A stretch of DNA of 64,000 bases from Novosphingobium huizhouense (lineage in GTDB: Bacteria > Pseudomonadota > Alphaproteobacteria > Sphingomonadales > Sphingomonadaceae): positions 1,116,001-1,180,000 of the forward strand of contig NZ_JAILXZ010000001.1 of assembly GCF_020179475.1 (NCBI RefSeq), given 5' to 3'. The translations under genes were made by a program, and so were the position numbers. Shown here in pieces: positions 30,732-32,597 of the stretch (the first letter of the stretch is position 1; each line of letters opens with the position of its first letter). The notes below the pieces were generated by a model. It was not told the origin of the DNA. It saw only the letters and a program-made list of their open reading frames with translations, and searched no databases.

Positions 30732-31748
30732 ATGCGTATCGTTTCCGGCATCCAGCCCACCGGCAATCTCCACCTCGGCAACTACCTGGGGGCGATCCGC
30801 AACTGGGTGGCGATGCAGGACGAATGGACGGCGCGCGGCGCGACCTGCCTCTACTTCCTTGCCGACCTCCACGCGATCTCGATGCCGCACAAGCCCGAGG
30901 AGCTTGCCGCGAGCACGCGCGAGATGGTCGCCGCGCTGGTGAGCTGCGGGATCGATCCCGACCGGTCGATCCTGTTCAACCAGGCGCAGGTGCCCGAGCA
31001 CGCGCAGCTGCAGTGGCTGCTCAACGGCACCGCGCGGATGGGCTGGCTCAACCGCATGACGCAGTGGAAGGACAAGGCGGGCAAGAACCGCGAGGGCGCG
31101 AGCGTCGCGCTGTTCACCTATCCCGTGCTGCAGGCGGCCGACGTGCTGTTGTACAACGCCACGCACGTGCCGGTGGGCGAAGACCAGAAGCAGCATCTGG
31201 AACTGGCGCGCGACATTGCGCAGAAGTTCAACAACGACTTCTGCCCCGAAGACGCGCCGCTGTTCATCCAGCCCGAACCGATCATCCCGCCAGAAGCCGC
31301 GCGCATCATGTCGCTGCGCGATGGTACCGCGAAGATGAGCAAGTCCGATCCTTCGGACATGAGCCGCATCAACCTGACCGACGATGCCGACGCGATCATG
31401 GCCAAGGTGCGCAAGGCCAAGACCGACCCCGAGCCGCTGCCTTCGGACAAGGCGGGGCTCGAAGGCCGGGCGGAGGCTGCGAACCTCGTCGGGATCTACG
31501 CCGCGATGGCGGGCACCAGCGTCGAGGCGGTGCTCGGCCAGTTCGGCGGGCAGGGCTTCGGCGCGTTCAAGCCCGCGCTGGGCGAGCTGCTGGTCGAGAA
31601 GCTTTCGCCGATGGCGGCGCGCTATCGCGAATTGCGCGAGGACCGCGCGGCGTTGGACGCGATCCTCGCCAAGGGTGCGCAAAAGGCGCGGGCGCTGGCC
31701 GTGCCGACCCTGGACGCCGCCTACGCGGCGCTCGGGCTGGTTCGCTAA
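30732..31748 (+). CDS. trpS: tryptophanyl-tRNA synthetase
   Basis: The 338-residue class I synthetase charging tRNA-Trp. The first signature, [13 protein letters not shown] near residue 10, holds the HIGH equivalent HLGN; the second, [13 protein letters not shown] near residue 203, is the KMSKS loop. [12 protein letters not shown] near residue 130 and [16 protein letters not shown] are also typical. Length matches the usual 330-340 residues. Located 11 bases after murJ. Its 3' flank is the palindrome-rich region described separately; no classical terminator with a T tract was seen there. Confidence 0.97.
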
Positions 31749-31762
31749 CACGCTTGAATCGT

Positions 31763-31849
31763 TGCTGAATGCTGCAGTGCTGCAACAATTGTTGCAGGAC
31801 CCATTCAACGCGCATTCAGCACCTCCCGCCTAGCATCGGGCCATGCTAG
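31763..31849. promoter_or_regulatory. palindrome cluster upstream of the DUF4136 lipoprotein gene
   Basis: Three inverted repeats lie in 87 bases. An outer pair, TGCTGAATGC (31763-31772) and GCATTCAGCA (31812-31821), brackets a perfect 18-base palindrome CTGCAACAATTGTTGCAG (31780-31797). Further on is CTAGCAT-CGGGCC-ATGCTAG (31830-31849), with seven-base arms and a six-base spacer. None is followed by a T tract, so operators are more likely than a terminator. The DUF4136 start is about 60 bases downstream. Confidence 0.6.
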
Positions 31850-31910
31850 AACCGAGCCGCGCCCGCCGTCAGCCGGGGGACCCGGGCCGCACCTGATGGA
31901 GTCGCTTAGG

Positions 31911-32597
31911 ATGAACACCGCTTCCGGCCGTAACCGTTTCGCCCCCAATCGCCTCGCTCTGGCTGCAGCACCGCTGCTCCTTGCGCTGTCGGCCTGCGCC
32001 ACCCCGTTCAACGCCAATGTCTCGCGCTACCAGCGCGAACTGCCCGCGCCCGCCGGCCAGACCTTCGCGATCGTGCCGCAGGACCCGCGCGACGAGGGCG
32101 GGCTCGAGTTCGCCAACTATGCCGCGCTGGTGTCGGCGCAGATGCAGAAGGTCGGCTACGTGCCGGGCAACCCGCAGAGCGCGGACCTGCTGGTGAAGTT
32201 CGACTACGGCGTCGACAAGGGCCGCGACAAGCTGCGCACGACCGGCTTCGGCGATCCCTACTGGGGCGGCTGGTACGGGCCGGGCTGGGGCGGCTGGGGC
32301 CGTCCCGGGTTTTATGGCCGTCGCGGCTGGGGCTATGGCTGGTACGATCCGTTCTTCTTCGGCGGGCCCGGCTACAACAACGTCGACGTCACGACCGTCT
32401 ATACCAGCGGCATCGACCTGAAGATCGACCGCCGCGCCGACGGCAAGCGCCTGTTCGAGGGCAAGGCCGAGGCCGCCTCGACCTCGAACCGCCTGCCCTA
32501 TCTCGTGCCCAACCTGGTCGAGGCGATGTTCACCGACTTCCCCGGCCACAACGGCGAGACGGTGCGCATCAGCGTGGCGCCCGAAAAGAAGAAGTGA
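31911..32597 (+). CDS. DUF4136 family lipoprotein
   Basis: A 228-residue outer-envelope lipoprotein with lipobox ALSAC near residue 30. The DUF4136 domain occupies the rest: FNANVSRYQ near residue 38, ADLLVKFDYGV near residue 95 and the closing NLVEAMFTDFPG. Between about residues 112 and 145 is a striking segment made almost only of glycine, tryptophan, tyrosine and proline (YWGGWYGPGWGGW and similar), which interrupts the domain. Function is unknown; relatives occur in stress-induced envelope proteins. I chose the ATG at MNTASG, nine bases after GGAG; an in-frame ATG 15 bases earlier has no ribosome-binding site. Expression is probably controlled by the upstream palindromes. Confidence 0.85.
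   Translation: MNTASGRNRFAPNRLALAAAPLLLALSACATPFNANVSRYQRELPAPAGQTFAIVPQDPRDEGGLEFANYAALVSAQMQKVGYVPGNPQSADLLVKFDYGVDKGRDKLRTTGFGDPYWGGWYGPGWGGWGRPGFYGRRGWGYGWYDPFFFGGPGYNNVDVTTVYTSGIDLKIDRRADGKRLFEGKAEAASTSNRLPYLVPNLVEAMFTDFPGHNGETVRISVAPEKKK

Follow-up and report, generated by a model that had tools for sequence, protein, structure and literature searches.

Three inverted repeats lie between trpS and the gene for a DUF4136 lipoprotein in the 64,000-nt stretch of Novosphingobium huizhouense DNA analyzed here (the window). They are present as described in a first-pass annotation, which favoured operators or a structured leader over termination. Does either proposal account for the region, and are the palindromes themselves what selection has kept? 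The 147-nt intergenic region houses the element, and PurT is encoded downstream of the lipoprotein gene. The relevant features are as follows.

30732–31748, plus strand: trpS, the upstream gene, on the same strand as the lipoprotein gene (Pfam tRNA-synt_1b, E = 5.2e-72)
31755–31770, minus strand: reverse-facing second box, which reads ATTCAGCAACGATTCA on this strand; forms the outer palindrome with the forward box
31763–31772, no strand: left arm of the outer palindrome, TGCTGAATGC; overlaps the reverse box
31780–31797, no strand: central palindrome, CTGCAACAATTGTTGCAG, 18 bp and perfect; possible site of a second regulator
31803–31818, plus strand: FeuP-type box, ATTCAACGCGCATTCA, a direct repeat ATTCA-N6-ATTCA with an 11-bp period; consensus RTTCA-N6-RTTCA, equivalent to TTCA-N7-TTCA
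31812–31821, no strand: right arm of the outer palindrome, GCATTCAGCA; overlaps the second half of the forward box
31830–31836, no strand: left arm of the third palindrome, CTAGCAT; overlaps the −10 element, pairing not conserved
31831–31836, plus strand: predicted −10 element, TAGCAT, 12 nt after the box
31843–31849, plus strand: ATGCTAG, a conserved stretch where transcription is predicted to start; also the third palindrome's right arm
31911–32597, plus strand: DUF4136 lipoprotein gene, presumed to be the regulated gene (Pfam DUF4136, E = 1e-22)

The lipoprotein carries a lipobox, LSAC, read by eye, and its nearest named matches come from Novosphingobium sp. KCTC 2891, N. percolationis, and N. 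olei. Translation probably begins at ATG 31911 rather than at the first ATG (31896), because GGAG stands at 31898–31901 and the position aligns with the AGGAGTCGC-ATG arrangement of relatives.

Inverted repeats and the conserved promoter

To gauge chance occurrence of the palindromes, the 147-nt intergenic region was shuffled 1000 times with its dinucleotides preserved. Gapless palindromes with arms of 9 nt or more (the central type) arose in one shuffle, arms of at least 10 nt with a loop of 13–60 nt (the outer type) in nine, and arms of at least 7 nt with a loop of 1–12 nt (the third type) in 132. None of the 1000 held all three at once. The outer and central palindromes are thus unusual for a sequence of this composition, and the third, taken by itself, is not.

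Upstream regions were collected for 30 relatives first and then for 80 named loci, and the box was sought in the forward orientation from −300 to +120 of the lipoprotein match, either strictly or with a relaxed second half (RTT[C/A]A). It precedes the DUF4136 gene in 79 of the 80 named relatives (69 strict, 10 more relaxed), compared with 0 of 80 for a reversed-pattern control; the sole locus without it, L120, has just 149 nt of upstream DNA. In a box-anchored alignment of 79 rows, which includes the window, the position 12 nt after the box reads TA in 47 and has A as its second letter in 71, and TA occurs at eleven other offsets in 0–7 rows each. A third conserved spot, seen from the information content at +40 to +45 of the box alignment, is ATGCTA, about 6 nt beyond the −10 element. 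This spot would fit a transcription start, at approximately 31843 in the window. Sequence conservation thus supports the region as a promoter of the DUF4136 lipoprotein gene that carries a candidate operator.

Pairing was scored in the same 79 box-anchored rows, window included. At least 8 of 9 pairs of the central palindrome are kept in nine rows, and at least 9 of 10 pairs of the outer palindrome in two; conservation of the central palindrome is confined to one Novosphingobium subclade. Full pairing of the third (7 of 7) was found in the window alone, with a mean of 2.38 pairs in the other rows against 1.28–2.08 for slid controls, and we rejected it as a conserved element; its arms are the −10 and start-site elements, which pair here by coincidence. 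The outer palindrome exists because a second, reverse-facing box upstream opposes the forward one. The reverse box is shared with 3 of the 78 other rows (L059, L060, and L061) and with genome G009, nearest relatives only. On this alignment, the palindromes are not the conserved feature and mostly reflect the box or are local. The earlier proposal of an operator upstream of the lipoprotein gene therefore survives as a conserved promoter with a regulator box, and the identification of the palindromes as operators was mostly wrong because the conserved operator is a direct repeat, an element absent from the first-pass description. Conservation in relatives, on which that proposal had been staked, was found for the box and not for the third palindrome.

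A frame of 17 codons (31843–31896) runs from the ATG at the predicted transcription start to a TGA overlapping ATG 31896. A leaderless short ORF beginning at ATGCTAG was considered and rejected, as the subclade keeps the start and not the length or frame: among 27 rows, 3 have no start, 4 have no stop in the stretch read, and 20 have 4–81 codons.

The repeats might instead act in RNA, as a trpS terminator or as a structured leader of the lipoprotein mRNA. RNA spanning 31763–31821 can indeed fold into a long hairpin of −27.9 kcal/mol, but the region folds with a stability only slightly above that of its shuffles (z = −1.76), and a search of the region with Rfam found no family match. The pairing of the outer and third arms is lost in relatives, and the outer and central elements lie 5′ of the predicted start at ~31843. 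A role in RNA is accordingly very unlikely, and the suggestion of a structured leader is not borne out. The first-pass argument against termination, which had pointed to the missing T tract, agrees with our search of the region, where no terminator-like site (G+C-rich hairpin plus T tract) was detected.

The central palindrome deserves consideration as an operator in its own right, bound by another dimeric regulator (repressor or activator) that would fine-tune the promoter within one Novosphingobium subclade. Its rarity in shuffles favors this idea, as does the pairing of its arms in 9 of 79 rows, in each at the same distance from the box. Similar left halves are also present at a comparable distance in Erythrobacteraceae: eight rows (L098, L105, L112, L116, L117, L129, L132, and L137) have a half-element resembling TGCAACA-N-ATGT, with variation in L117, L129, and L137. 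It lies some two helical turns upstream of the box, at the place taken in Novosphingobium by the full palindrome. A palindromic operator would be expected to recur, but CTGCAACAATTGTTGCAG has a single site in its own genome. Over 37 genomes it has 12 sites, only 3 of them at the DUF4136 promoter, and the reversed pattern has 9, and the palindrome, rejected on these counts as a genus-wide motif, is missing from most boxed promoters. We regard a separate operator here as a tentative proposal, somewhat doubtful on present counts; it can coexist with the FeuP-box explanation developed below. In the nearest relatives, the central palindrome and the reverse box may contribute a local layer of control beyond what that explanation covers.

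The candidate regulator and its operon

Direct repeats with a 10–11-bp period are general to the OmpR family of regulators, and this genome encodes 13 OmpR-type DNA-binding domains. Only one of the 13 regulators has a box in its own locus (G000:C33:51250–51924), where a PepSY-like gene precedes it and a kinase (HK) follows. Its orthologues within the genus are 93–98% identical. It shares 65% identity over 219 aa with FeuP of Sinorhizobium meliloti, and FeuP in turn finds its best match among the 13 in this protein (64.8%, versus 42.9% for the next). The two have in common the stretch VVSRTEL-EH-YDQDFDRDSNTIEVF, near-identical around the recognition helix, and the adjacent kinase is 34% identical to FeuQ (E = 2e-67). 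On sequence comparison, the regulator is the FeuP orthologue. FeuPQ is known from rhizobia, where it is associated with nodule invasion, osmotic stress, and the response to host peptides. The small first gene of the operon showed no similarity to FeuN (BLASTP E = 0.18) and encodes a small exported protein with a PepSY match below the Pfam cut-off; since it is unlike FeuN, the operon is not identical to feuNPQ. FeuP-like proteins were also seen in other settings: Cupriavidus megaplasmids (H16, H17, and H19), outside the Alphaproteobacteria, encode a regulator ~63% identical to the FeuP orthologue, and some alphaproteobacterial genomes (G131 and G133) have two FeuP-like regulators.

The box is a consistent feature of this operon. 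Within the genus, 30 regulator loci were fetched, and the start could be located in all but two (L156 and L159); of the other 28, 26 have the box ahead of the small gene, and none has the control there. In one exception the box lies further up (L148) and in the other there is no box in the locus (L149). At the level of the order, where 29 loci were fetched and 7 had no located start, it stands at 21 of 22 promoters in strict form and at all 22 in relaxed form, again with a control of 0. TA follows at exactly 12 nt in 48 of the 53 boxed regulator-operon promoters from Sphingomonadales, while other offsets from 8 to 17 account for 0–2 each. Across the class, 20 of the 24 places available were fetched and the start was located in all but 5; 10 of these 15 loci carry the box and the control none, so the link, as judged from sequence, is not universal at that level. 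The link between box and DUF4136 is not universal either, and less so than autoregulation, because the strict box is found at 9 of 20 DUF4136 orthologues outside the family (11 of 20 relaxed).

The PepSY-like gene of the regulator operon begins a few nucleotides past the predicted transcription start (L140, 1501–1545, and relatives L145–L174). For that reason its mRNA may be nearly leaderless.

The closest precedent is from S. meliloti. The annotated record gives the gene order feuN-feuP-feuQ, and ATTCATTTGCCATTCA precedes feuN, followed by 12 nt and then TAATGA; the feuNPQ promoter is thus built like those described here, as a box, 12 nt, and TA. A study of S. meliloti start sites (PMC3616915) describes a Motif 3, TTCA-N7-TTCA, ahead of 12 genes, of which five depend on FeuP, and treats it as a candidate FeuP site. 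The two systems share an identical direct repeat, an orthologous regulator, and the order small gene, regulator, kinase. They differ in the first gene (FeuN there; PepSY-like and unlike FeuN here) and in their targets, with ndvA the named FeuP target in S. meliloti and DegP-like, BamE, LolA, DUF4136, and other proteins predicted here.

Geometry provides the second precedent. Salmonella PhoP architecture I promoters, that of phoP included, have a single directly oriented box that is separated by 12 nt from the −10 element downstream, and they are predicted to be class II (PMC3335776). The likeness extends to the direct hexamer repeat, its direct orientation, the 12-nt spacing, and a place in the regulator's own promoter. 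The half-sites, however, are (T/G)GTTTA there and RTTCA here, and the regulator scores below the NCBIfam cut-offs for PhoP and PmrA. NCBIfam places it near PmrA, QseB, and PhoP, under all cut-offs shown, and its solved relatives include the BasR/PmrA entries 4s04 and 8jo2. A PhoP box proper was rejected both on the half-sites and on the PhoP equivalog model, which the regulator matches with 195.6 bits against a cut-off of 336.

Because its geometry is the same as that of PhoP architecture I, we read the element in the window as a class II promoter that would be activated by FeuP and would belong to an envelope-maintenance regulon, and we put the probability of this reading at roughly 0.8. The phosphorylated FeuP orthologue, an OmpR-family protein, would bind both RTTCA half-sites of 31803–31818 head-to-tail. 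The bound dimer would then cover the −35 region, with 12 nt between it and the −10 element TAGCAT, and recruit RNA polymerase as PhoP does at Salmonella architecture I promoters. The box before the feuPQ operon would make the system autoregulated, and boxes before genes for DegP-like, BamE, LolA, PspA/PspC, and lipoprotein or exported proteins would tie these into an envelope-maintenance regulon. The sequences themselves show the box, its conservation, its constant distance from the −10 element, its occurrence at the regulator's operon, and the orthology with FeuP; binding by the regulator, activation, the start site, and an inducing signal are the parts of this model that we infer.

The box could also be bound by another OmpR-family regulator, with the PepSY-like-regulator-kinase operon merely one of its targets. 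The genome offers thirteen candidates, repeats of this period are family-wide (PMC9275681), and the pairing of FeuP with the box is drawn from sequence. Yet of the 13 loci, that of the FeuP orthologue is alone in containing a box, no other operon is boxed as consistently, and the same motif occurs at S. meliloti FeuP-dependent genes (PMC3616915). A different regulator is therefore unlikely.

Better-known alphaproteobacterial envelope regulators, CenR and ChvI, make very improbable owners of the site. CenR recognizes TGA-N8-TGA, which on the other strand reads TCA-N8-TCA with the same 11-bp spacing, and it too controls an envelope regulon. In 28 of 31 promoters, however, its sites lie upstream and point the same way as transcription, contrary to the orientation in the window, and CenK/CenR are reported absent from Sphingomonadales (both from PMC9275681); a CenR site was rejected on these two points. 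The ChvI motifs given in PMC9731502, TTGC-N3-GCAA or GCC-N8-GCC, differ from the box, and a ChvI site was likewise rejected. UzcR of Caulobacter resembles the FeuP orthologue as a two-component regulator of many exported-protein genes, and its m_5 motif starts with CATT; that motif (CATTAC-N6-TTAA) has a ~10-bp spacing and another second half, and a UzcR site was rejected for these differences. In Burkholderia, DUF4136 is linked with a two-component operon, according to PMC5192318, although the regulator there is CreB-like and the operon different.

Boxes elsewhere and the predicted regulon

The N. huizhouense genome contains 10 matches to RTTCA-N6-RTTCA, against 2 for the reversed pattern. 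They fall at 9 places, each with the start of an exported or envelope-related gene ~200 nt or less downstream (signal sequences were judged by eye). The genes behind them encode the DUF4136 lipoprotein, the PepSY-like-regulator-kinase operon, a DegP-like protease, DUF3576, DUF2141, BamE, and PspC, along with two further exported proteins, one with a sub-threshold TPR match and one without a Pfam family. TA stands 12 nt after the box at just 3 of the 9 places, read by eye. In 37 genomes of the genus there are 402 box sites and 92 control sites, and the box exceeds its control in every genome (37 of 37).

Forty sites were listed from G009, G011, and G021; 7 at DUF4136 or regulator-operon places were excluded, leaving 33 further sites. 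Fifteen of the 33 lie before a Pfam-confirmed LolA, DegP-like, BamE, SIMPL, DUF2141, DUF3576, or VWA/YfbK protein; the others comprise unassigned sites, unscanned sites, and sites lacking a clear gene, and L212 was left unscored. Seven sites from other genomes were picked for their recurring letters. Pfam identified LolA (L224), BamE (L222), and PspA (L226) among them; by eye, L221 is DegP-like, L223 BamE-like, and L225 LolA-like, with L220 unassigned. Some box matches are probably due to chance, and L208 is probably one such because it lies inside an ORF. L237 has three half-sites in 11-bp phase, and L279, from Azospirillum, has two complete boxes.

A predicted envelope-maintenance regulon in Sphingomonadales

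The site is of a known kind, in a new order (Sphingomonadales) and with a newly predicted envelope regulon. No report linking FeuP with Sphingomonadales was found in the literature searched. We would give even odds to a broader proposal, that throughout Sphingomonadales FeuPQ acts as the master system for envelope stress, standing in for Cpx/PhoP and for the missing CenKR. By way of class II promoters it would drive the DegP-like protease, BamE, LolA, PspA/PspC, and uncharacterised lipoproteins (DUF4136 and DUF3576), with a PepSY-type periplasmic protein as its brake in place of FeuN.

The box, the promoter geometry, and the predicted autoregulation across Sphingomonadales together offer a testable envelope-stress regulon in an order from which CenKR is reported absent. 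Its boxes stand before genes for outer-membrane assembly and quality control, and uncharacterised lipoprotein families become attached to the predicted FeuPQ regulon.
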